Shown here piece by piece: positions 4,062 to 24,895 of a DNA stretch of 64,000 nt (position 1 is its first letter; every line of letters starts with the position of its first letter). Under the pieces are notes generated by a model. That model was not told the origin of the DNA. It ran no database searches and worked only from the letters and a program-made list of their open reading frames with translations. Source of the stretch: Methylobacter sp. BlB1 (GTDB taxonomy: Bacteria > Pseudomonadota > Gammaproteobacteria > Methylococcales > Methylomonadaceae); assembly GCF_015476545.1 (NCBI RefSeq), contig NZ_JADMKV010000007.1, positions 1 through 64,000 of the forward strand. The letters are read 5' to 3'. Made by a program: the position numbers and the translations under genes.

Positions 4062-6541
4062 ACCGTTTTACTTTGGCGTTGCGATTATTGTGGCGGGACA
4101 GCCGATCCGGCGAGCTGACCATACTGGTATTGGCCTTGATCATTGCGGTCACGAGTTCGACAGCCATCTCGCTGTTCGCCGACCGCCTGCAGCGCACGAT
4201 GACCGTCCAGGCGGCCGATTTTCTGGCGGCCGATCTGATCATCTCAAGCACGGCCCCGATTCCCGAGCCCTGGCTCGCCAAAGCCAACCAGCTCAAGCTG
4301 ACCCAGGCTCAGACAGTCGAATTTTCCAGCGTACTGATAGAAAACGACGAATTGCTGTTGGCCGGCGTCAAGTCCGTCAGCGCCTTATATCCATTGCGAG
4401 GCCATCTGAAAACCACGACTTCGGATTACTCGGCCGAAACGAGCGTCGATAAAGGCCCGGCCCCCGGCACGGCCTGGGTCGACAAACGCGTTCTGTCTGC
4501 GCTGAAGCTCAAGCTGGGCGATCCCTTGACCGTCGGCGAAAAAAAACTGACCGTCAGCCGCATCATTACCTATGAACCCGATAAGCGCGGCGATTTTTAC
4601 AGCTTCTCTCCGCGCGTCATGATCAACCAGCAGGACCTCGAAGCCTCCGGCGTTATACAGCCCGGCAGTCATGTGCATTATTTCTTTCAGTTCAGCGGCG
4701 ACAGCAAGTCCCTGGCCGCCTTCAACCGCTGGGTCAAACCGCAGCTGAATCCATCGCAACGGCTGATGGACATTCATGAAGACCGGCCGGAGCTGGGCTC
4801 GGCACTGGAGCGCGCCGAGCGTTATCTGGGCCTGTCGAGCATCGTCGTGATTCTGATCGCGGGCGTCGCCATCGCCATGGCGACGCGCCGCTATACGGAA
4901 CGGCACTTCAATACCACGGCCATACTGCGCTGCCTGGGCTGCAGGCAGCGCGAAATTCTCTGGCTGTACAGTTGCCAGTTCATCGTGCTGGGCATGCTGG
5001 CCAGCGCCACAGGTTGCCTGTTGGGCTGGTTTGCCCAGGAAGCGCTGTTCCATCTGTTAAGAAACCTGCTGCCCGCGCAGGTCGCCAGTCCCGGACTGCT
5101 GGCAATTTTCTTCGGCTTCATCACCGGCATGGTGATCTTGCTGGGCTTCGCACTGCCGCCCATCCTGCGCCTGAAACAAGTCTCAGCGCTCCGCGTTTTG
5201 CGCCGCGATCTTGAGCCTTTGCCGAGCAGCGCGTGGCTGATCTACGGTCTGGCCGTCGGCCTGATGTCGGTGCTGATCTGGCGTTATACCGACGATATCA
5301 AAATGACGGCGACGATTATCGGTGTCGGCTTGCTGGCGCTGCTGCTTCTGGGCCTGCTGGTTTATGGCTTGCTGATATTGTCGCGCCGATTGCTGCCGCA
5401 CATGAGTCTGATCTGGCGCTTCGGCCTGCAGGGCTTGTTCAGGAACAGCCGGGGCAGCGTCAGCCAGATACTGGCTTTCAGCATGACGCTGGTAGCCATG
5501 GTGCTCAGCTTCACCGTGCGCACCGATTTGCTCGACAACTGGCACAAGCAGCTGCCCGAGCATGCCCCCAATCACTTCGCGCTGAACATTTTTCCGGATC
5601 AGCAGCAGGCATTTCAGCAAACGCTCGAGCAGCAGCAAATCGCCGGCAGCCGGTTTTATCCTGTCGTCAGGGGGCGTCTGGTCGAAATCAACCAGACGCC
5701 GGTACAGCAAATCGTCAGCAAGGACACGCAGGGCGAAGGCGCCACGCACAGGGAATTAAGCCTGACCTGGTCAAAAGACTTGCCCGAGGACAATAAAATC
5801 ACGGCCGGCCGCTGGTGGCAGTCGGACCGGGCCGGACTGGTCTCCGTCGAGCAAAAACTGGCCAAGAGCCTGAAAATCAAAGTGGGCGACAAGTTGACCT
5901 TTACCGTCGGCAGCGAGCAGTTTGAAGCGACCGTATCCAGCCTGCGCGATCTGCAGTGGGACACGATGAAGCCCAACTTTTACATGATTTTCTCGCCCGG
6001 CACGCTGGAGAATTATCCGAGCACCTTCATCACCAGTTTTTATCTGCCCGAAAGCCGGAAAAACTTTTTAAACGATCTGATAAAAAAATTTCCCAGCACC
6101 ACCCTGCTGGAAGTCGATCTGATCCTGCAGCAGTTCAAAACCATCCTGACCCAATTGACGGCGGCGATCAATTACCTGCTGTATTTTGCCTTGCTGGCCG
6201 GTTTCACTGTATTGTTCGCAGCGGTTTATTCGACGCTGGACGATCGGATTTACGACGGCGCCTTAATGCGCACGCTGGGCGCAAACCGTACGTTTCTCAG
6301 GAAAACCCATCTGATCGAGTTTACCTTGCTGGGATTGATATCTGGCTTGCTGGCTGTGTTGATTTCGGAAATTATCCTCTATACTTTATATACGCAGGTC
6401 ATGCATATGGAATATACGCCCAATATCTACTTGTGGGCTGTCCTGCCGCTGATAGGCGCACTGTTCGTGGGCTTGGCCGGGTACTGGGGGGTGCGGGATG
6501 TGGTTAATAAATCGCCGCTGCTGGTTTTAAGAGAACTCTAA
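4058..6541 (+). CDS. ybbP: ABC transporter permease YbbP (FtsX/MacB family)
   Basis: This 827-residue permease has an N-terminal transmembrane helix (about 18-38) and a periplasmic domain of roughly 200 residues. A first FtsX block follows (about 255-375), then further helices around 390-445 and 470-490, a second periplasmic domain, and a C-terminal FtsX block (about 700-820). The duplicated FtsX architecture and length match E. coli YbbP, the partner of YbbA. The family couples ATP hydrolysis to periplasmic conformational change, not classical transport. Translation is coupled to ybbA by a 4-base overlap. Confidence 0.92.
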   Translation: MNRFTLALRLLWRDSRSGELTILVLALIIAVTSSTAISLFADRLQRTMTVQAADFLAADLIISSTAPIPEPWLAKANQLKLTQAQTVEFSSVLIENDELLLAGVKSVSALYPLRGHLKTTTSDYSAETSVDKGPAPGTAWVDKRVLSALKLKLGDPLTVGEKKLTVSRIITYEPDKRGDFYSFSPRVMINQQDLEASGVIQPGSHVHYFFQFSGDSKSLAAFNRWVKPQLNPSQRLMDIHEDRPELGSALERAERYLGLSSIVVILIAGVAIAMATRRYTERHFNTTAILRCLGCRQREILWLYSCQFIVLGMLASATGCLLGWFAQEALFHLLRNLLPAQVASPGLLAIFFGFITGMVILLGFALPPILRLKQVSALRVLRRDLEPLPSSAWLIYGLAVGLMSVLIWRYTDDIKMTATIIGVGLLALLLLGLLVYGLLILSRRLLPHMSLIWRFGLQGLFRNSRGSVSQILAFSMTLVAMVLSFTVRTDLLDNWHKQLPEHAPNHFALNIFPDQQQAFQQTLEQQQIAGSRFYPVVRGRLVEINQTPVQQIVSKDTQGEGATHRELSLTWSKDLPEDNKITAGRWWQSDRAGLVSVEQKLAKSLKIKVGDKLTFTVGSEQFEATVSSLRDLQWDTMKPNFYMIFSPGTLENYPSTFITSFYLPESRKNFLNDLIKKFPSTTLLEVDLILQQFKTILTQLTAAINYLLYFALLAGFTVLFAAVYSTLDDRIYDGALMRTLGANRTFLRKTHLIEFTLLGLISGLLAVLISEIILYTLYTQVMHMEYTPNIYLWAVLPLIGALFVGLAGYWGVRDVVNKSPLLVLREL

Positions 6542-6638
6542 TAATTATTGTTTAAATTACGCCGCCGCCATTCATGCGCTATTCAGAAAATATTATCTAA
6601 ACTTCAAGCGAACAATCACTCAATACTAAGGTACTACA

Positions 6639-7061
6639 ATGAAGAAATTAACAACCGTCGGCATCGTTTTCATGGCCAGTACGCTCATCACAGCTTGCGC
6701 CAATCAGGGGGGCGTAATGAACAGCTTTGGCGGTGGATGGACACCGACTGTCGATGCATACAATGATCCTAACGCTTACCGTCTCAATCAGGACATGGCT
6801 GAATGCGGACAAATCGCGGACCAAAGCTCCGGCGGCATGCTGAAAGAGGGCGCTAAAGGCGCCGCGGTAGGCGGTCTGCTCGGCGGCGCCAGCGGCGCGG
6901 CTTTAGGTGCGCTCACAGGCGATGCCGGCAAAGGCGCGGCCATAGGCGCGGCGGCAATGGCCCTCGGAGGCGGCGCCTACCAAGGCTATCAGGCAAGAGA
7001 TTCCTACAAAAGAGCTTACTCCAGCTGTCTGAGACAACGCGGCCACCGCGTAATCAACTGA
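6639..7061 (+). CDS. glycine-zipper lipoprotein
   Basis: A 140-residue lipoprotein: the signal peptide ends in the lipobox LITAC (Cys at residue 20), and mature Asn at +2 may favour outer-membrane sorting. The central region (about 70-118) is a glycine zipper, rich in GxxxGxxxG repeats such as GAAVGGLLGGASGAALG. Glycine-zipper segments associate with membranes, and relatives include Rick_17kDa-like antigens. The C terminus contains a Tyr/Arg-rich YKRAYSSCLRQRG segment. It is monocistronic, following the ybbAP operon after a 97-base gap. The exact role is unknown. Confidence 0.85.
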   Translation: MKKLTTVGIVFMASTLITACANQGGVMNSFGGGWTPTVDAYNDPNAYRLNQDMAECGQIADQSSGGMLKEGAKGAAVGGLLGGASGAALGALTGDAGKGAAIGAAAMALGGGAYQGYQARDSYKRAYSSCLRQRGHRVIN

Positions 7062-7088
7062 TCCGATTACACCTCTGATCAATCGGAT
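7061..7088. terminator. short hairpin between convergent genes
   Basis: An 8-base perfect inverted repeat (ATCCGATT at 7061-7068, AATCGGAT at 7081-7088) spans the end of the lipoprotein gene and the stop of convergent trmN. It may act as a shared terminator; there is no T-run, so this is tentative. Confidence 0.35.
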
Positions 7089-7828
7089 GCACAGGGATGT
7101 GTGTCGATTGCTTTTCCCTCTTTTAAAAACCGCAGCAAAAAAGTCGACAAGTAGCGTTCGCTGGCCTGCGTGTAAACGCCCGCAGATTCATAAACGATCA
7201 ACCTCTCCTTTACCAGCGCAGCAGCCGTACGGCTGAAAATCAGCGCCGCAACCCTGGCCTTGCTGTGTGCAAAGCCAGAGTAATCGTTCTGCCTGATCAG
7301 ATGGAAACCTGCCGCCGATGCGGCAGCGGCAAACTTCGGCACGGCATGAGCGGGCAGCAACAGATACAGCAGCCCCTGCGGCGACACCAAGCGATCGGCG
7401 ACTTCGATCAAGTCGGCATAGCCAAGCTGATCAGTATGCCTGGCGGTATGCCTGAGCGAATCTTCGGCCCCGAGGTGGTTTTCGAAAAACGGCGGATTGC
7501 TGATGACCAGATCGTAAGGCCGCCCGGCCTTGAAGGCAAAGCTCTGGATGTCCTGATGCACCGCCTCCAGGCGATCCGCCCATGGGCTCGCTCCGAAATT
7601 GAAGCGGCATTCCCGATAAGCCTCTTCAGTCAGTTCCACAGCCGTCACGTGCCCGGCGCCCAGCTGTGCCGCCATCAGTGCCAGCAATCCCGTGCCCGCG
7701 CCGATATCGAGCGCCCGCTCGCCGCCGTTAACGGGCGTCATGGCGCCAAACAGGATACTATCGGTGCAGACTTTCATGGCCGACTGTTTCTGTTGCACCG
7801 AAAACTGCTGGAAATTGAAAACCGACAT
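7079..7828 (-). CDS. trmN: tRNA1(Val) (adenine-37-N6)-methyltransferase TrmN6/YfiC
   Basis: A 249-residue class I SAM-dependent methyltransferase. The glycine-rich SAM loop is ALDIGAGTGLLALM (about 40-53) and the N6-adenine motif IV is DLVISNPPFF (about 108-117). The N terminus FQFSVQQ..MKVCTDSILFGA is typical of the YfiC/TrmN6 subgroup and separates it from PrmC/HemK. It modifies A37 of valine tRNA. It is convergent with the lipoprotein gene and stands alone. Confidence 0.9.
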   Translation of the reverse strand: MSVFNFQQFSVQQKQSAMKVCTDSILFGAMTPVNGGERALDIGAGTGLLALMAAQLGAGHVTAVELTEEAYRECRFNFGASPWADRLEAVHQDIQSFAFKAGRPYDLVISNPPFFENHLGAEDSLRHTARHTDQLGYADLIEVADRLVSPQGLLYLLLPAHAVPKFAAAASAAGFHLIRQNDYSGFAHSKARVAALIFSRTAAALVKERLIVYESAGVYTQASERYLSTFLLRFLKEGKAIDTHPCASD

Positions 7829-7881
7829 GATTAATTACTCATCGTCTTGAATAACTCATATTAAGAATGTCGCCGGAAAAA

Positions 7882-7963
7882 TTGTAGGGTACGCATCGCG
7901 TACCATTTTCAAATTTTTCTGATGAACCAGCTCACAAAATGGTACGCAGTGCGTACCCTACAA
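7882..7963. repeat. large palindromic repeat (MITE/REP-like)
   Basis: Two 28-base arms (7882-7909 and 7936-7963) are inverted with 26 of 28 positions paired. Each arm is itself a palindrome: GGTACGC and GCGTACC flank three bases. The element ends two bases before the stop codon of the large membrane-protein gene on the minus strand. Nested palindromes of this kind are typical of non-autonomous repetitive extragenic elements; the hairpin might also end transcription. Confidence 0.7.
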
Positions 7964-7965
7964 AG

Positions 7966-10900
7966 CTACTTCTTCTGCTCAGCCGCTGCTTCTTCCTGCT
8001 TGACCGGCTTTTTTCTCCAGAAACCGCCGCTTGAGTAGCATTTCCAGCCCCATTTAAGCCAATTCAGCAGCGCAAAGGCCAGCCATAACGACCAGGCCAG
8101 CATGAGCAGCCGGTACACGAATAACGGCACCGAAATCAGCGTTGCGGTCGGCAGGGTCGATGGGCTTCTGTCCTGATACCAGTTCAGGTTGAACGCCGAA
8201 GACTGATTGCCGGTAATCTGCATCTCGGGCGATCCGAGCAGGCCCTGTTGGACGGCATCGAACAACAGGCTCAGCGATATCAACGTCAACAGGCCGATGG
8301 TCACCTGCATTATATTGAAATAGTTGGCCTGCGCAATCGGCCTGTCTGAGCGCCAGCCCAGGATCATTAACCAAGCGACCACAATCACGGCCGACTCGAT
8401 CGGTATCTGGCTGAGCCCGATCAACAACAAAAACCAGTGCCAGCTCTTTAACGGCGTCAAACGGATTTTTCCCAGGCCCAGCGATACGATCACGATGACG
8501 GCCAGAACGCCCCAAAATAAAACGGCAGGCCCGAATTCGGGGCCCATCGTAAACAGTACCCAGCGGTCCTGGCCCAAGCCCATACTCAGGCTGGTGTTGA
8601 CGCTGCCCTGCCCCAGATCCACCTCAGGCGTAGTTATGACGGGTGCCATTTCAAGCGCCTGCTGCCAGTTCAGCAGGATATCCTGCCTGCCGGGATGAAT
8701 CGGCACGGTCAGCGTACGCCCCTTTTGCCGCAACGGCTGAATCACGCCGTCTACCATCACCGACTGCAGCACGGCGTTTTCGGGCAGGGTCAGCGTATGC
8801 TGCGCGCCTTGCGAACTGCGCAGGCTGATTTTCAGTTCGGCTTCCTGCAGGCGCTTGCTGGGCTTAATCATGAGCCGGCTGTCATCGATAGTCAGCGTTT
8901 GGCCTTCCACCGGCTGCGGCCGCGTGATTTTCAGCGTTACTTTCTCGCCAGGCCAGGGCCGCCATTCAGGCAGCCAGCGCCCTTCATGATTCTGATGGAT
9001 CATGGCAATGCCCGACGCTTCGATATGCCAGATGGGGCTGACATCGGCTGCCCAGATTTCCCGCCAGCGGTCTGTCGGCGCCGCTGTCAATTCGATCTGC
9101 CCGGTTTTTTTCAGGACCGATTGCCATTCCATAAAAGTCTGCTGCGGCGGCATATTGACTTCGACTTTGCTGTCCTTTACGCGCACGCCCGCCGTCGTGA
9201 CCGATTCGTCCGGCAGCAGCGGCACAGCGATGACCACGGCCGAATCGGCCGGTGAAATCCTGCTGATCTGCGTGATGACGCGCCAGTCCAGGCCCAGCTG
9301 CAAGGTGCGCTTGATGCTGACAAACGGCGGCAGGACGCCAGGCTCCAGGGCCGGCTTGCCGGCTTCCTGCGCCTGGCTGACGCGGCTGAATTGCAGCTGG
9401 CCGTCGACGCGGCCGTCTTCCTGCGTGCCGCTGACCTGCCAGCCAGCCGCTTCAATGGCGACGTGATGCGGCTTCAGCGGCAGCGGCAGCGTGAACCGGT
9501 TCAGCAGTGGCGCAGCGCTCAGCTCCACCTGGTGCTCGCCTTCGCTCAGGTTGATCCATAAACTGTTGCCGCTGCGGTAAAGTCCCTGGGCGGCTTTGCC
9601 GTCGACCGAGACCTGACTTGGAAACCATTGTTCGTATTCGGCAGGCAACGGCACAGCCACGGCTTGCCGGGCATGAATTTTTAACGTCAGCGTCAACGCC
9701 TTGTCCGTGATCGCCAGGTGCATCTGCGGAATCTGCGCGCAATCCGGCAGACAGTCGGGCGCTTCCAGTAGTCTGTTGCGCAATTCATCGAGCATGGCCT
9801 GATCGGGGAAATCGGCATGGGCCGGCTGTGGCGACAGCATCGGCAGCACTAGGAACCCCAGCAGTACCGGCATTGCGGCTTTCAGGTTGAATTTGAATTT
9901 TTCGGCGACGCCGAACATCAGCAAGGCCAGCACAGCGATCAGCCCTACGCGCAGAAAATTGAGCAGCATGGTCATGACCGGCGGCTGATACCACAAATGC
10001 AGTTCCTGCCCGCTGTCCACGGCGCCGTTCCAGGACAGCTGGATCTTGGTCCATTGCCATTGCGGCAGCCCCGGGCCGGTCTGGATTTTGGCGTTGGGAT
10101 CGATGCGCTCGAAGTTGACGGCTTCGTCCTTTTCAACCGCGGCGCCGGATGCAGCCTGTTCCGGCATCGATTTCCTCATGGCCTGTTCCTCCATGTTCAT
10201 GGTTTCCGGCGCCATCGCGGCCGTAGCCGGATACTCCGTCGGCAGGATGGTTTGCCAGGGCTGCTCCAGCTGCGGGTAAAGCCCCATGCGTATCTGGTCG
10301 ACCATGAACGGGATTGCGGCCAGGACCAAAAACAGGCAGGTAACAGCGCGATACCAGTTCATGAAGCTCAAAAACCTGCCCGGCGGCAACACTTTAATCA
10401 GCGCCGTCGCAGCCAGGATATTGAGCCAGACAAAATGGGGCGCGTCGGGCTCATGCCAGATAATCACCAAGGTCAGCAGAGCGAACAATCCCCAGGCCGG
10501 ATTCCACAGATGCCTGATCGCCAGCGCCGCGATCAGCACCAGAAACAAGTCCAGCAGCGTCCAGCGCGCAATCCAACTGTCCGGCACGTTGTCGACGCCG
10601 GAGGCCGCCAAAAGACGCCAGCCCGGCGGCAGGTTCAGCTCGGCATTGACGTTATGAAAATTCTGCTCCCAGCCGACCGCGCTGAGAGTGCCGATGCCGT
10701 CCGCTAGCCGGCTGTCGGCATCCAGCGTTATGCGGCCCTGCCTGACTTCCACGCCTTGCTTATCGGCATCGCGGGTGATGAGCTGGCTTTGGCCGTCCAG
10801 CATGACCTTGCCCAGCTGCGTCCTGGGCAAGGCATTAAGCCGCCAGCCCCGGGTCATGCGACCCGTGATCAGGTCATTGACCGTATAACCGGTTCCGTCA

Positions 10901-11973
10901 AAATCCAGCCACAATTTCCGCGTCAGGTTGAGCTGGTTCGGCTCGGGTTCCGGATCGCCCCGGCGTATCAGCTTGAAATGCATGGCCTGCCCCTGGCTGA
11001 TGCGGTAGGCAGGCAGACTTTTCCAGTCCTCGGGCAGATTGGTCTGGCTTGGGTCGAGCGCGCTTAAGTCTTCAATTTCAACCACGCGCAGTTGCGGAAC
11101 CGCATTGAACACCCAGACTTCCTCAGCCGGCCAGTCTTTGCGTACTGCAAACGGTATCGCGTCCAGTTCGCCCGCGCTTCTGGCCAGCAGCTCGATCTGC
11201 CAGCGGCCGGGACGCACCTGGACCAGCAGTTGCCCGTCCGGCTCCAGCCGGGCCGGCAGCGGACTTTGCAGTTGCAGCGGAATAAAGCCTTCCGGCAGAG
11301 GCAACGCCAGTTTGATTTCGCGTTGCGCGCCAGAGACTTCCAGATCCATGCGCGTTAAAACCTGTAGCGGCACATCATCGATGATTTTACGGAACACCTG
11401 CAGATCAAGGCTGTCCCGCTGGTCTTCGAGCTTTTTCCGGCCGCTGTCGCTGTCTTTCAGCCACAGCTGTCCGTCTTTAATGATGGGCGTCTGTATGGCG
11501 TTGCCGTTGATATGCAGGCTGATCAGTCCGGTATCCTCAGGAATGGTCAGATTGTCCGGCAGCTTGTCCCAGAGAAACTGACCTTTGATCTCGTAAACGC
11601 CGGCTTCGAGCAGAACCTTCGGCCTGCCGTCTTTGTCCATGACCAGCGCCGGTTTGTCGTTAGCCGTTACGTTAAGCGGCCAATAGTTATGGTCGCCCGG
11701 CAGGCTGAGCCAGCTTTCCTGATAGACTTTCCAGCTGATCGTGAACGCGCCTTTTTCAGGTGTGATATCGAGGCTTAGCTGAGTCGGCCAGCTGCAGCGT
11801 TTTTGCTCATAGCTGTTGTATAGGAAAGGACAGATGCGCTCCTGATCATGCTGCAGCACCCAGTTGACCCAGGGCTTGAGCGGCTCCGGCACCTGCTCCA
11901 GCGTCAAGGGTTTGGCCGGTACGGCCGGGGAAAGAAATAGCGTAATTAGTAACAGCCAGATGATACGACTCAT
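7966..11973 (-). CDS. large inner-membrane protein of unknown function
   Basis: A 1335-residue protein with a signal peptide (ending PAVPA near residue 20), a long beta-rich periplasmic region (about 30-475), and a block of hydrophobic helices (about 480-560). A second beta-rich region carries helices near 660-720, and four or five C-terminal helices (about 1175-1310) lead to a basic/Glu-rich tail KKPVKQEEAAAEQKK. Repeated beta-sandwich-like stretches alternate with membrane blocks. No catalytic motif was recognised. The ATG at 11973 is chosen over one at 11991 because GGGAGC precedes it. It lies downstream of mpl on the same strand, separated by a repeat element. An envelope assembly or sensing role is possible but speculative. 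Confidence 0.8.
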   Translation of the reverse strand: MSRIIWLLLITLFLSPAVPAKPLTLEQVPEPLKPWVNWVLQHDQERICPFLYNSYEQKRCSWPTQLSLDITPEKGAFTISWKVYQESWLSLPGDHNYWPLNVTANDKPALVMDKDGRPKVLLEAGVYEIKGQFLWDKLPDNLTIPEDTGLISLHINGNAIQTPIIKDGQLWLKDSDSGRKKLEDQRDSLDLQVFRKIIDDVPLQVLTRMDLEVSGAQREIKLALPLPEGFIPLQLQSPLPARLEPDGQLLVQVRPGRWQIELLARSAGELDAIPFAVRKDWPAEEVWVFNAVPQLRVVEIEDLSALDPSQTNLPEDWKSLPAYRISQGQAMHFKLIRRGDPEPEPNQLNLTRKLWLDFDGTGYTVNDLITGRMTRGWRLNALPRTQLGKVMLDGQSQLITRDADKQGVEVRQGRITLDADSRLADGIGTLSAVGWEQNFHNVNAELNLPPGWRLLAASGVDNVPDSWIARWTLLDLFLVLIAALAIRHLWNPAWGLFALLTLVIIWHEPDAPHFVWLNILAATALIKVLPPGRFLSFMNWYRAVTCLFLVLAAIPFMVDQIRMGLYPQLEQPWQTILPTEYPATAAMAPETMNMEEQAMRKSMPEQAASGAAVEKDEAVNFERIDPNAKIQTGPGLPQWQWTKIQLSWNGAVDSGQELHLWYQPPVMTMLLNFLRVGLIAVLALLMFGVAEKFKFNLKAAMPVLLGFLVLPMLSPQPAHADFPDQAMLDELRNRLLEAPDCLPDCAQIPQMHLAITDKALTLTLKIHARQAVAVPLPAEYEQWFPSQVSVDGKAAQGLYRSGNSLWINLSEGEHQVELSAAPLLNRFTLPLPLKPHHVAIEAAGWQVSGTQEDGRVDGQLQFSRVSQAQEAGKPALEPGVLPPFVSIKRTLQLGLDWRVITQISRISPADSAVVIAVPLLPDESVTTAGVRVKDSKVEVNMPPQQTFMEWQSVLKKTGQIELTAAPTDRWREIWAADVSPIWHIEASGIAMIHQNHEGRWLPEWRPWPGEKVTLKITRPQPVEGQTLTIDDSRLMIKPSKRLQEAELKISLRSSQGAQHTLTLPENAVLQSVMVDGVIQPLRQKGRTLTVPIHPGRQDILLNWQQALEMAPVITTPEVDLGQGSVNTSLSMGLGQDRWVLFTMGPEFGPAVLFWGVLAVIVIVSLGLGKIRLTPLKSWHWFLLLIGLSQIPIESAVIVVAWLMILGWRSDRPIAQANYFNIMQVTIGLLTLISLSLLFDAVQQGLLGSPEMQITGNQSSAFNLNWYQDRSPSTLPTATLISVPLFVYRLLMLAWSLWLAFALLNWLKWGWKCYSSGGFWRKKPVKQEEAAAEQKK

Positions 11974-12087
11974 GATGCGCTCCCGGGTCAATCCATGTTG
12001 TTTTTATTTACTGCGAAGCCTCCAAAAGCTTCGCGGCATTTATAGTTAAGGATTCGGCTAAAAATAACATCCCGTTTTTATGGTCCC

Positions 12088-20253: not shown

Positions 20254-20308
20254 GATTTATTAAATGTCGTAGTCAGTGATTAAAGGATATTGATTTTTAA
20301 GCATTTTT

Positions 20309-20635
20309 CTATTTTATTTGCCATAGATAATTTGAAAAATGACGCAAATAATGACAAATTTCAGAAATCGTGACAAAAAAATAATGGTCGATGTTGCGAT
20401 TGACCTGTCGCGGACCTTCCTGACGAACTATCCGGAATTTCCGGATAGTTCGTCCCGGCTCCAGTTCACCTTCCTCGTAAATATTTTGCAAGTGCTCATT
20501 AATGGTTCGCACATCCTTCTAAAACAGTTCAGCCATCAGCGCCTGTGTTAGCCATAGCGTGTCTTCCACGAACCGACATTCAACTCGGGTTTTACCGTCT
20601 TCAATTTCGTACAACAGAAATTCGCCAGAAATCAT
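20309..20635 (-). pseudogene. rhuM: broken RhuM-family gene
   Basis: Reading from the ATG at 20635, the product matches the RhuM N terminus (start MISGEFLLYEIEDGKTR, then LWLTQALMAELF). It then meets a TAG at 20519-20521 where homologues have Gln, and resumes in the same frame as KDVRTINEHLQNIYEEGE and onward to RQVNRNIDHY. After that it leaves the family sequence and stops at 20309, so roughly the C-terminal two thirds are missing. The ATG overlaps the stop of yhcG (ATGA), indicating it was once translated with that nuclease. RhuM proteins are frequent in restriction and toxin-like accessory loci. It is non-functional as a full protein. Confidence 0.8.
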
Positions 20636-21687
20636 TGGTTACTATCCAATTGGTCGCCGCCCAATCGTTGCCGAGAGCTACGGATAACATCATGCAGCTT
20701 TTGTTGCAGCACCGCTTTGGGCGGCAGTTCGGTCAGGTATTCGGCGACATGGATGCCGGCCTGATCCAATTCCAGCAATTCGATTTGTTCCTGTTTTTTA
20801 CCGCTACACAGGATAATACCTAACGGCGAGGCCTCGCCGGGTTCCTGCTCGTATTTTGCCAACCAGCGCAGGTAGAGCTCCATCTGGCCTTTGTCAGCAG
20901 CTTTGAATTCGCCCAATTTCAGGTCAATAGCCACCAACCGTTTCAAGCGGCGGTTGTAAAACAACAGGTCGATGTAAAAATCGTCATTGTCGATCTGCAA
21001 GCGCTTCTGGCGAGCTACAAAGGTAAAACCCGCGCCCAACTCCAGCAGGAAGTTTTCCAATTCGCGCAGGATGGCGTCTTCCAAGTCTTTTTCCAGGTAA
21101 CGGTCATTGAGTTGCAAAAAATCCAGCACATAGGGATCTTTAAATAACAGACAAGGCTCTAAGGCGTCCGATTTCGCCAGTTGTTCCAGTTCGGCAGCAA
21201 TGGTCTGTTCGGGGTTCTTTGATAAGGCGGTGCGCTCGAACAGCATGGAATCGATACGCTGTTGCAGCAGACGTGTACTCCAACCTGCGGTGCGGCACAT
21301 TTGCACATAGAAATCGCGTTTGAGCGGATCGTCAATCGCGATAAGTTGCCGAAAGTGGCTCCAGCTCAATTTTGCACACAGTGTCTGCAAAATATCGGCA
21401 TCAGGAAACACTTCGGCAAAGCGGATCATGTAAGCCAGATTGCGTTCGCTCCATCCTCGCCCGTATTCAAGGCTTAATTTGGACGATAACCCCGGCAAAA
21501 TCTGTTGGCCGTATTCTGCGCGTCCACCTTTTAGGATATCGGAACGGATGCGTTGACCTATGTGCCAATACAGCAAGCTTAATGCCGAGTTGACGGTAAC
21601 AGCGAGCCTGGAACGGCTTTCATCTATGAGTTGGCGAATATCTTGCAACAGCGCCTGAGATTCGATAACGGGCAATAGAGGTTTCAT
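20632..21687 (-). CDS. yhcG: YhcG-family PDDEXK nuclease (DUF1016)
   Basis: A 351-residue protein with the DUF1016 N-terminal domain (about 5-150, including SLLYWHIGQRI and YGRGWSERNLAYMIRFAE). The C-terminal YhcG nuclease domain has a candidate PD-(D/E)XK core: D240 in FYIDLLFY, then D255-L-K257 in AIDLKLGEF, with conserved MELYLRWL. The ATG at 21687 is chosen over one at 21750 because CGGAG lies eight bases upstream. Family members accompany restriction and toxin-type genes and act as nucleases or accessory DNA-binding proteins. It is intact while its operon partner rhuM is broken. Confidence 0.88.
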   Translation of the reverse strand: MKPLLPVIESQALLQDIRQLIDESRSRLAVTVNSALSLLYWHIGQRIRSDILKGGRAEYGQQILPGLSSKLSLEYGRGWSERNLAYMIRFAEVFPDADILQTLCAKLSWSHFRQLIAIDDPLKRDFYVQMCRTAGWSTRLLQQRIDSMLFERTALSKNPEQTIAAELEQLAKSDALEPCLLFKDPYVLDFLQLNDRYLEKDLEDAILRELENFLLELGAGFTFVARQKRLQIDNDDFYIDLLFYNRRLKRLVAIDLKLGEFKAADKGQMELYLRWLAKYEQEPGEASPLGIILCSGKKQEQIELLELDQAGIHVAEYLTELPPKAVLQQKLHDVIRSSRQRLGGDQLDSNQ

Positions 21688-21799
21688 TGTGTTGGCTCCG
21701 TGTCGAAGTACATCAATAAGGGCTGAATAAATTGATCGTTGGTAAAACACAGCTTATTAAATCAACGACACTGGTCCTATGCCCTATTGATTCTTAAAG

Positions 21800-24247
21800 T
21801 CATTTTCCGTAGTTTTTCTCAGCGGAAGAGATTGCTGCATTTAAATTCTCTTCAAGTGCATGGCGCATTTCTTTGAGGGGATTACCTAGCCAAATTGATT
21901 CTAATCCCCTCTTGCTAGCTTCACTCAAAATCGGCTCGTATTGAGACTCCATGAACTCATAAAAGGCTCTAGTTCTATTGACCCTCAATTTTATTTTTTC
22001 TACAACATTTCGCTCTTCAGTTATAGCTTGAGAAATATCTTTTAGCTTATCCCAAACTGTCTTATCCGATATAAACGTATCCATCATTATATTTTCAACA
22101 AACGTAAAATCCCCAAGCAAGTTACGAACAATATGCCCGCCAAGTCTACTTGGATAATAACTACTCGCAAGAGAGGCTTTTCCATGTGATGAGGTATGAA
22201 TAAATCTTAACTCACACAAATCTGACAATACATCTAATGTATCAGTCTCCGAATAACCAATAGAATTTAAACGATCTCTAATAGTTGGTGCGTCAAGAAA
22301 GTTGGAACCGTTTTCACTGTTCAATTTAACTAGAGCCGATAAAACAAAAAGTCTCAATAGCTCGCCATTTGACCTTCCAAGTCTGGAATCTAATGGATTT
22401 CCGATAACCGAATATTTTTCGCTATAGACGGATTGATTCCCAAGCAAAATTGAACGAAATGCCTCTTGTCTTGGCAAAGTGTAACGTCCATCTCTTTGAT
22501 ACGTATTTAATGCTTTAGCTGGATCAGTATACCCCCTTGCAAGGAACTCTCTTGTCATTCTCAATGCTAATCGAACATCATGATTAGAAAGAACATCAAT
22601 TCTTGAACCAACTTCAGTTCCTAAAACCGAACTTCGAACAATCTCAATAAATACCGATAAATCGCTAACCTTAAAATTGGCTCCGTTTAATGCCTTGAAT
22701 TCACCTGATATGTTTGATAAAAGTTTTCCCGCCATAAAAAATCTTCTTGATAAAACTGCTGGTATTTCAGGCGGTTCAATATGAAGTGGATCGAAGTCAA
22801 ACGCATTAAAAGTAGGCGAATTGCGATGATTTACATACGTAGATTCACGCATTGCCATTATTAGATTAAGATTCAGTCGGCTAGCTAACGCAATTGCGTC
22901 AGAGAATATATTCGACTGAACGCTTTCATCTTCAAACTGGTCAACATTATCTATTACTAAAAATATGGGGCTTTTTCTTGTTCCGTATGCAAGTAACTTA
23001 TCAACATATGGCTCTATATTTGTGTAATCAGCCATTATAAGTTCGGATATTTTCTTATCAAATTCGTCTTGATTTTTGGCGACAAGAAACATAGGCCCAG
23101 TCTTTAGGGACTCTATCTCATCTCTATATGCTGACCGTATCGACCTATTGTATTCTTTGAAAAAATCATCTTTTTTTAGATACTCAAATAAACATTTATA
23201 CAAAAAGCTTATCGGACTTTCATTTTTAGAGAAGTCTCGAAAATCAATATCTATCCAGTGAGGATATGCTTTATCATTTGATTTCTCAAAAAACTTCCCA
23301 GCTGTTACCTTCCTTGTGTATTGTAAAAAAGTAGTTTTTCCTGTACCTACTGTGCCTAAGATTAAAATTGCTAAAGGACGAGAAGAAGACAATGCTGAAT
23401 TAAGAGAGTCACTCAATGCAGCAGAATCTTTCTTTCTCATTGGTCTTTTTGGCTGAGTAGCAAATAGAGATTCACTTTTTTTCAGATGCATTTGAATTCT
23501 ATTGTCAAACTTAGTCCTATCTGGATTTTTTACATAACATTTTTCCAACAATTCAGTATCTGCTTCCACAATAGAATCAGAGAATGCAGTAAGAACCGCA
23601 TTCTCAATCAGTGGATAAATCGGATTAGGAAGTTTTGTAGAATTTCCCTTAAAAAAACAATTTAATCTACGTTCCTCAATTTGATCTATGTTTCTTCCGA
23701 GTAATTCAATAGCCAGATTGCCATCGATCACTCCATCTCTGGATAGTAAAGACTTAAAATGCCCAATTTCCTCACCTAATGCTCTCTCTAGAGAATCAAA
23801 GACAATAACATTTGATTCGGCAAACGATACTTGATCAGTCCTTACTGCTGGAAATATAAGCCAAATGGCCCCGTTGGTGACTACCGCAAACGGAATAGAC
23901 ATCTTACGACAGTAATCCCTCGCTTGAAGGATTGCTTGCCCTATATCATCTTTCATTATTTGCCCAGATAGTTTTAACTTCTTGCTTTGCGGAATAGAGC
24001 TAAAGCTTGCCCCAACTCTTTTTGCTTCAATTAGAAAAGATGTGTTGGCTGTTCTAATAATATAGTCAGCGTATGTTGTTGCACCATCTTCTGAAACGCG
24101 CTCTTCATAGGAAATATCATCATCAGTCCATCCAAGCACATCTTCCAATATTCGATCTATCAATTTTTTTCTAGTTTCTGCCTCATTTGCGTTGTGAAGA
24201 TGCAATCGAGCATGTCTAGCGATCAAACCTTTTTCAATATCGTTCAT
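21800..24247 (-). CDS. HsdR-like PD-(D/E)XK nuclease fused to P-loop ATPase, candidate defence protein
   Basis: An 815-residue protein. Residues 1-160 resemble the N-terminal nuclease domain of type I restriction HsdR: the core D61 in YADYIIR, E74-A-K76 in FLIEAKR, GQAILQARDY, and AVVTNGAIWLIF. After a linker comes a P-loop NTPase with Walker A GTVGTGKT (298-305) and Walker B IFLVIDNVDQ (428-437), then a helical C-terminal half (about 550-815). No helicase motifs, methylase or specificity subunit are present nearby. The gene is visibly more A+T-rich than its neighbours. Its architecture suggests an NTP-regulated nuclease of the kind used in abortive phage defence. The function is inferred and no known system name is assigned. 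Confidence 0.75.
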   Translation of the reverse strand: MNDIEKGLIARHARLHLHNANEAETRKKLIDRILEDVLGWTDDDISYEERVSEDGATTYADYIIRTANTSFLIEAKRVGASFSSIPQSKKLKLSGQIMKDDIGQAILQARDYCRKMSIPFAVVTNGAIWLIFPAVRTDQVSFAESNVIVFDSLERALGEEIGHFKSLLSRDGVIDGNLAIELLGRNIDQIEERRLNCFFKGNSTKLPNPIYPLIENAVLTAFSDSIVEADTELLEKCYVKNPDRTKFDNRIQMHLKKSESLFATQPKRPMRKKDSAALSDSLNSALSSSRPLAILILGTVGTGKTTFLQYTRKVTAGKFFEKSNDKAYPHWIDIDFRDFSKNESPISFLYKCLFEYLKKDDFFKEYNRSIRSAYRDEIESLKTGPMFLVAKNQDEFDKKISELIMADYTNIEPYVDKLLAYGTRKSPIFLVIDNVDQFEDESVQSNIFSDAIALASRLNLNLIMAMRESTYVNHRNSPTFNAFDFDPLHIEPPEIPAVLSRRFFMAGKLLSNISGEFKALNGANFKVSDLSVFIEIVRSSVLGTEVGSRIDVLSNHDVRLALRMTREFLARGYTDPAKALNTYQRDGRYTLPRQEAFRSILLGNQSVYSEKYSVIGNPLDSRLGRSNGELLRLFVLSALVKLNSENGSNFLDAPTIRDRLNSIGYSETDTLDVLSDLCELRFIHTSSHGKASLASSYYPSRLGGHIVRNLLGDFTFVENIMMDTFISDKTVWDKLKDISQAITEERNVVEKIKLRVNRTRAFYEFMESQYEPILSEASKRGLESIWLGNPLKEMRHALEENLNAAISSAEKNYGK

Positions 24248-24404
24248 ATTTAACTATTCATTAATTTCCGGCCAAATTAAAAAATTATTACCCACGTGGA
24301 GCGAGATAAATATCCCACTCGACGAGAAAACATGAAGTCCTGTGGCCGGAACATCGGTTACAGTAGACGCCAAAAAATGAGGCACGAATACCAGTCGTCA
24401 TAAC

Positions 24405-24485
24405 CTAACCAAATTCTATATTTTCGTAATAATCGATTGCCCTGTTGAATTCATCCTCCGCATCAGGATGAAACATGAAGTTCAT
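24405..24485 (-). pseudogene. truncated RelE/ParE-type toxin
   Basis: Translation from the ATG at 24485 gives 26 residues, MNFMFHPDAEDEFNRAIDYY and then ENIEFG, matching the start of RelE/ParE toxins, before a TAG at 24405-24407. Adding one T after the GGT codon would restore GLGYD, the next family motif, so a single-base deletion is likely. The sequence after that no longer looks toxin-like, so the rest is lost. The ATG overlaps the antitoxin stop (ATGA). Confidence 0.7.
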
Positions 24486-24706
24486 TGCTCAAATCGCTGC
24501 CATATTTTCTCGAATACCTTTTCTCCGGGTACGGCATCTACCGAGCCGGACCGCAATTCCGTTAACCGTTGCGTTGCCGTAACCACCCATTTTTTATCGA
24601 TTTTCGATTCCGGTTGGTTAAGACTACAAAGTAGTGAATCCACGACTAATACGCGTTCTTCTACCGGAAGTGAAACCGCTTCGTCGATTAGCTCTTGTGT
24701 ATTCAT
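24482..24706 (-). CDS. addiction module antitoxin (TIGR02574-like)
   Basis: A 74-residue protein, start MNTQELIDEAVSLPVEERVL, then VDSLLCSLN and a C-terminal WQRFEQ. It matches the short putative addiction-module component family that pairs with RelE/ParE toxins. The toxin gene that overlaps its stop codon is truncated, so this is an orphan antitoxin. It may still be expressed or could neutralise related toxins elsewhere. Confidence 0.75.
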   Translation of the reverse strand: MNTQELIDEAVSLPVEERVLVVDSLLCSLNQPESKIDKKWVVTATQRLTELRSGSVDAVPGEKVFEKIWQRFEQ

Positions 24707-24798
24707 TTCATCACCTATAGTTAGCGGTCTTAAATGCTAGATTTAATTCTAATTCAATTTACTTAGTAATTACTCAACATATGTTAAGTTCAAACAAT

Positions 24799-24852
24799 AG
24801 AACACGGATAAAAATCCGTCTACATCCGTCTTATCTATCCCATCCATGTTCT
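24799..24852. terminator. inverted repeat downstream of gyrB
   Basis: AGAACACGGAT (24799-24809) pairs with ATCCATGTTCT (24842-24852) at 10 of 11 positions, and the loop holds a direct repeat ATCCGTCT. It lies 44 bases past the gyrB stop on the minus strand. It could be the end of the gyrB transcript or an island boundary relic; evidence is weak. Confidence 0.35.
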
Positions 24853-24895
24853 ATGCCTATAACTACTGAGCAGTTATTTTAGAAAAATAATATAA

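Follow-up and report, generated by a model that had tools for sequence, protein, structure and literature searches.

What is the function of a stand-alone protein that joins a putative restriction-type nuclease to a P-loop ATPase and is encoded between core genes of Methylobacter sp. BlB1? The gene lies in the window, by which we mean the whole stretch of 64,000 nucleotides that was analysed; its features are collected in Table 1. The ORF for the protein, here termed P0001, is intact and reads from an ATG, and its length and coordinates were exactly those of the preliminary description, which had given no strand. The positions given there for the predicted catalytic residues (D61, E74 and K76), for Walker A (298-305, GTVGTGKT) and for Walker B (428-437, IFLVIDNVDQ) were likewise correct.

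The gene is part of an insert flanked by dnaA-dnaN-recF-gyrB on one side and by lgt, thyA and the DHFR gene on the other. In two congeners (L096, near 4091, and L097, near 12651), only 2 nt separate the gyrB stop from the lgt start. At the same junction, L095 carries a different insert of 3.97 kb (4148-8121), which has short flanks in common with the window insert on both sides and is filled by the gene for an 863-aa protein (4748-7339) with a signal-like N-terminus and repeats, which we take to be reminiscent of SBBP-type proteins. What lies between gyrB and lgt varies within the genus, and no copy of P0001 was found in the congeners. As previously noted, the P0001 gene is A+T-rich: its G+C content is 0.364, compared with 0.547 for gyrB and 0.544 for lgt-thyA; that of the YhcG gene is 0.498. 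We conclude that the P0001 gene is foreign and was horizontally acquired, because its G+C content is 36% as against about 55% and because the insert is missing at the gyrB-lgt junction of L096 and L097. Clear boundary repeats were looked for at the insert ends, and none stood out. The earlier statement that the gene sits with other defence-type genes holds for the insert, which, besides degraded remnants, contains the YhcG/DUF1016 nuclease gene and the gene of an addiction-module antitoxin, but not for the flanks, which are core genes. As its genome has a gene of the pmoA/AMO family, the host is probably a methanotroph. Elsewhere in the window, a 1341-aa ORF (7966-11991, minus strand) matched nothing in Pfam at an E-value of 1e-4 or below.

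Table 1. Coordinates of the insert, its genes and the parts of P0001 (window positions; residue numbers refer to the protein)
Feature	Position	Strand	Basis
Insert between gyrB and lgt, 4.64 kb (4,642 bp)	20254..24895	.	Comparison with congeners
P0001, 815-aa fusion of HsdR_N-type PD-(D/E)XK nuclease and P-loop ATPase	21800..24247	-	ORF call, Pfam, PHROG, alignment
Predicted HsdR_N-like PD-(D/E)XK domain, residues 1-160; E22, D61, E74, K76, Q108, Y112	23768..24247	-	HSDR_N_2, 3h1t profile, domain model, invariance
P-loop ATPase core, residues 270-480; Walker A 298-305, Walker B 428-437 (DNxDQ)	22808..23440	-	KAP_NTPase, AAA_16, invariance, model
AAA+ lid, residues 481-615; invariant R502, sensor-2-like R559 (DVRLALR)	22403..22807	-	Alignment, Orc1/Cdc6 fold matches
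Winged-helix-like domain, residues 628-708; invariant G703	22124..22366	-	Model and Orc1/Cdc6, CED-4, Apaf-1 matches
Helical tail, residues 712-815	21803..22114	-	Model
YhcG/DUF1016 PDDEXK nuclease gene (PADLOC PDC-S02)	20632..21750	-	49 nt downstream of the P0001 gene, same direction
Addiction-module antitoxin (Unstab_antitox)	24482..24706	-	PF09720, 2e-12
26-codon frame overlapping the antitoxin end, resembling a truncated RelE/ParE-type toxin start	24405-24485	-	Appearance; no Pfam match
RhuM-like remnant with in-frame stop, beginning at the YhcG stop codon (tentative)	20378..20635	-	Sequence; PF13310, 0.096
Perfect 16-nt inverted repeat near the lgt-side insert end, perhaps a terminator	20422..20454	.	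Sequence

In Pfam, HSDR_N_2 matched residues 22-133 of P0001 only weakly (4.6e-4, below the gathering cut-off). A profile made from the first 200 residues of 26 relatives, however, matched the solved HsdR structure 3h1t (2e-5), and the DY..EAK..QA.dYa motifs of the two were in register. The nuclease domain was modelled (pLDDT 89, pTM 0.86), and its best PDB fold was again 3h1t (E 3.4e-4); next came BpuSI, Cas4 and Holliday-junction resolvases, which are likewise PD-(D/E)XK enzymes. The assignment is firmer than the weak Pfam match, since both the relatives' profile and the modelled fold lead to 3h1t. We conclude that the N-terminus of P0001 is a predicted HsdR-type PD-(D/E)XK nuclease domain.

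A comparison of the second part with STAND and AAA profiles had been proposed: KAP_NTPase exceeded its cut-off (3.4e-7 over 276-444; 30.3 bits, cut-off 20) and AAA_16 matched at 5e-6, whereas nSTAND5 (8e-5; 22.9 bits, cut-off 34) and NACHT (13.1 bits, cut-off 26.7) stayed below theirs. In agreement with the reported lack of restriction helicase motifs, no helicase domain was found in Pfam at E up to 10. In a model of the whole protein (pLDDT 84.9, pTM 0.73), for which the alignment was built without plasmid rows, a linker of low confidence (186-190 and 260-266) joins the nuclease domain to the P-loop core; the lid, which is helical, comes next, then a unit resembling a winged helix and, last, the helical tail. 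The insert within the P-loop domain, which is transmembrane in classic KAP proteins, is predicted to be helical here and looks soluble. R467 lies at the end of the strand that follows Walker B, R559 may act as a sensor-2-like arginine, and residues 631-708 are predicted to form helices and a two-strand wing. The tail of about 100 aa is helical in the model, and no repeat domain was among the Pfam matches. What had been described as a helical C-terminal half is thus better read as an AAA+ lid, an Orc1/Cdc6-like winged helix and a helical tail.

The best PDB fold for the whole model was 1fnn (3e-7), accompanied by many archaeal and eukaryotic Orc1/Cdc6 entries; Apaf-1, CED-4, RdrA of RADAR (8hr8) and TnsC followed below. 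The TM-scores of these matches were low (about 0.2 of the query), and we therefore limit the Orc-like reading to the ATPase, lid and winged-helix part. A PDB search with the single P0001 sequence gave no match, and one with the full alignment gave mostly generic P-loop matches (G-alpha, TsaE) and was set aside. Structure prediction, suggested earlier as a check, thus gave a nuclease fold closest to that of HsdR 3h1t and an ATPase, lid and winged helix closest to Orc1/Cdc6.

For conservation, we aligned 46 full-length relatives (44 distinct), with identities down to about 18%. E22, D61, E74, K76, Y112, the Walker A and B residues, R502 and R559 were invariant in all 46 rows; for the Walker A lysine and E22 this invariance was partly selected for, as both are contained in the patterns of the viral scan, whereas D61, E74, K76, Y112, Walker B, R502 and R559 lie outside these patterns. 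Position 108 was Q or E throughout. This invariance argues that the nuclease and ATPase signature is not due to chance and, together with the domain matches, bears out the fusion of both domains in one stand-alone protein as predicted. The homologues have not lost their active-site residues, an outcome that had been named as contrary to the original proposal. Moreover, dN/dS was 0.020-0.044 in three close pairs, which are under purifying selection.

Relatives were found in genomes (48-72% identity), on plasmids (21-51%), in E. coli genomes and on viral contigs. On the latter, the alignment scan found 32 loci; a scan with the single sequence gave no confirmed relative, and the annotated phage records gave no match. 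Full-length relatives were present in 4 of 397 genomes of the phylum and in 4 of 151 genomes of the order, and the clade of P0001 and that of L029 each occurred in 8 E. coli genomes (out of 5426), figures that are lower bounds, since only the query was recovered when the class was searched with few candidates scored in each genome. In the tree, which joins distant genera, the nearest kin of P0001 come from Pseudoalteromonas, Pseudomonas and Halomonas. The spread of the family is patchy, rare and mobile.

The carriers are diverse. Twelve loci have P2 neighbours, and the flanking genes gpA (origin-nicking) and gpQ (portal) were confirmed in three of them (L026, L042 and L052). According to PMC9122126, anti-phage systems cluster in the gpA-gpQ interval, a hotspot that is occupied by old and tin in P2 itself; partition genes and a toxin are found there too. 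In one E. coli locus in this hotspot (L108, 8751-10595), a second P-loop NTPase fold protein of about 614 aa is encoded directly after a family gene of the S1 clade described below. E. coli Rac prophages carry relatives, among them WP_045170235.1, as single genes that are inverted with respect to their neighbours, and a second lambdoid prophage type also has a lone relative. Further copies are on filamentous-phage-like contigs (with a Zot-like gene in L031 and L038 and a minor head protein in L045), for whose small genomes the family gene is a large cargo. Other carriers are a K. pneumoniae plasmid with phage-type genes (a phage-plasmid), conjugative plasmids and an integrating conjugative element. 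Broken copies (L023, and an IS1 insertion in E. coli H7) are as expected of dispensable cargo.

Within 6 kb of the relatives we found no conserved partner gene, only genes of the carrier elements in common. In the vicinity of a single plasmid relative, beyond an IS, lie hsdR and a gene for an N-6 methylase; the other plasmid and prophage relatives that were checked have neither. The neighbourhood survey of homologues, recommended beforehand, thus upheld the absence of methylase and specificity partners, and with no motor and no partners we rejected an orphan type I R subunit.

In two sister clades, an additional domain follows the helical-tail region. An S1 domain is found at the C-terminus of L041, L042 and L052 (NCBIfam; in L042 also above the Pfam cut-off) and a cold-shock domain (CSD) at that of L020 (above the Pfam cut-off), with two A1 members also matching CSD. 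Given these domains, the C-terminal region may sense nucleic acid. The S1 sister clade (L041-L053, especially L042 and L052) is unnamed, located in the P2 gpA-gpQ hotspot and commoner than the others, with 109 of the 5426 complete E. coli genomes (about 2%); WP_001678413.1 is one of its members.

The family is already recorded in databases under other labels. PHROG 14719, which has no assigned function, matched P0001 at 4e-145 (residues 13-804 against 19-806 of 833 positions), and full-length matches were obtained for each of the five members tested, even the most diverged. Relatives are annotated as 'P-loop NTPase fold protein' or as 'type I restriction enzyme HsdR N-terminal domain-containing protein'. 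In PADLOC-DB 2023 and NCBIfam 2026, no full-length or above-cut-off model names the family; the matches were weak and to partial domains only (DrmMI, mad8, PbeC and Sll1717), and we rejected identity with a defence system named there, another outcome that had been set against the proposal. Literature searches found nothing on an architecture of HsdR nuclease and Orc-like ATPase. The protein had been called undescribed, which is right with regard to names in PADLOC and NCBIfam but not with regard to its relatives, already grouped in PHROG 14719 and annotated.

We consider it fairly probable that P0001 is a single-gene, horizontally spread nuclease against phages or other mobile elements, switched by an ATPase of Orc1/Cdc6- and STAND-like type. 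This reading is based on the domains, the invariant catalytic and ATPase residues, mobility, the lack of partners, the relatives' location in known defence hotspots and purifying selection. The effector would be the HsdR-type PD-(D/E)XK DNase, and ATPase, lid and winged helix would form a switch that probably keeps it inactive. The winged helix and the C-terminal region would bind or sense nucleic acid, and an ATP-dependent rearrangement or oligomerization would then allow the nuclease to cut DNA. We infer DNase activity, nucleic-acid trigger, autoinhibition, oligomerization and the outcome for the cell from these features; analogy with STAND nucleases makes us lean slightly towards sacrifice of the infected cell rather than cleavage of the invading DNA alone. 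The earlier idea of defence gains support from the relatives in the published P2 antiviral hotspot (PMC9122126), although P0001 itself is located in a chromosomal insert rather than in a recognized defence island or prophage. Such a location is suggestive of defence but does not prove it, as partition genes and a toxin occupy the same hotspot.

The strongest rival is direct restriction by an ATP-dependent, Type IV-like enzyme, which would use the winged helix and the C-terminal part to recognize DNA that enters the cell, perhaps in modified form, and would cut this DNA directly while the cell survives. An HsdR-type domain in a single protein with a DNA-binding-type fold and no cognate methylase is consistent with this, and one K. 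aerogenes copy is annotated as 'predicted type IV restriction endonuclease'. We nevertheless regard it as rather unlikely: neither a translocase or helicase motif nor a known modified-base reader domain was found, and the S1 domains of the sister clade point to RNA or single-stranded nucleic acid in addition.

The Orc1/Cdc6-like fold could also point to an accessory factor for the replication, recombination or maintenance of mobile elements, such as an initiator or loader with a nuclease, and the gene is indeed often near phage replication genes, e.g. DUF977/ydaU-ydaV or gpA. However, few copies of each element type carry it, at accessory positions and, in Rac, in opposite orientation to the neighbours, while the replication genes proper are intact alongside. 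Its carriers, be they P2-like, lambdoid, filamentous or plasmid elements, replicate by unrelated systems and hold the gene as an accessory, which in our view makes such a role improbable. That P0001 forms a two-gene system with its YhcG/DUF1016 neighbour, which is encoded on the same strand at a distance of 49 nt in the same insert, is very improbable, as no YhcG-like gene is common to the relatives' neighbourhoods, whose clustering led us to reject an obligate pair, and the G+C contents differ (0.498 vs 0.364).

A bolder reading would be a separate immune class, in which the place of a classical STAND receptor is taken by an Orc1/Cdc6-type ATPase; this would read nucleic-acid structures that arise in phage replication and license the fused HsdR nuclease, and exchangeable S1 or CSD domains would set what is sensed. 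We regard this as doubtful. If the defence reading is true, one compact gene unites a restriction-enzyme nuclease with a replication-initiator-like ATPase and does so without methylase, helicase or partner. It would then be a testable, so far unnamed arm of phage-phage competition, and a common one, because members of the family are found again and again in phages, satellites and plasmids that are unrelated to one another, and its S1 form in about 2% of complete E. coli genomes. The interchangeable C-terminal domains would offer a handle on how such switches sense infection.

Among known proteins, P0001 is simply a member of PHROG 14719, from which it shows no difference. A single gene termed 'HsdR-like', carried by PICIs, was reportedly described as a defence gene by Fillol-Salom and colleagues in 2022. 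It resembles P0001 in being a single mobile gene and in its HsdR-like label, and no PADLOC match corresponded to that system; if it belongs to the same family, P0001 would be a new member of an already described system. With the N-terminal domain of Type I HsdR (HSDR_N / HSDR_N_2; 3h1t), P0001 shares the predicted fold and the E..D..ExK..QxxxY residues, but HsdR has a helicase/translocase motor and HsdM/HsdS partners, whereas in P0001 the nuclease is fused to a different ATPase. The Orc1/Cdc6 initiators (1fnn, 2v1u and 2qby), the best PDB fold matches, have a P-loop core, a lid with a sensor-2-like arginine and a winged helix that P0001 may share; P0001 differs in its N-terminal nuclease, its extra C-terminal tail and its bacterial, mobile nature, and the global TM-score is low. 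Like the STAND defence NTPases (Avs and bacterial NLR-like proteins), P0001 combines an N-terminal effector, an NTPase and a winged helix in one protein, and the fold matches to Apaf-1 and CED-4 and the weak nSTAND matches point the same way; however, no C-terminal repeat sensor was seen in P0001, a short helical tail being predicted there (with S1 or CSD in sister clades), and it does not reach the nSTAND cut-offs. P0001 may work like STAND or RADAR-type ATPase defences while remaining below the curated STAND cut-offs. RdrA of RADAR (8hr8), to which the model also gave a fold match, is a defence ATPase of about the same size. It acts together with a separate deaminase, RdrB, whereas the P0001 family carries its own predicted nuclease in the same protein.
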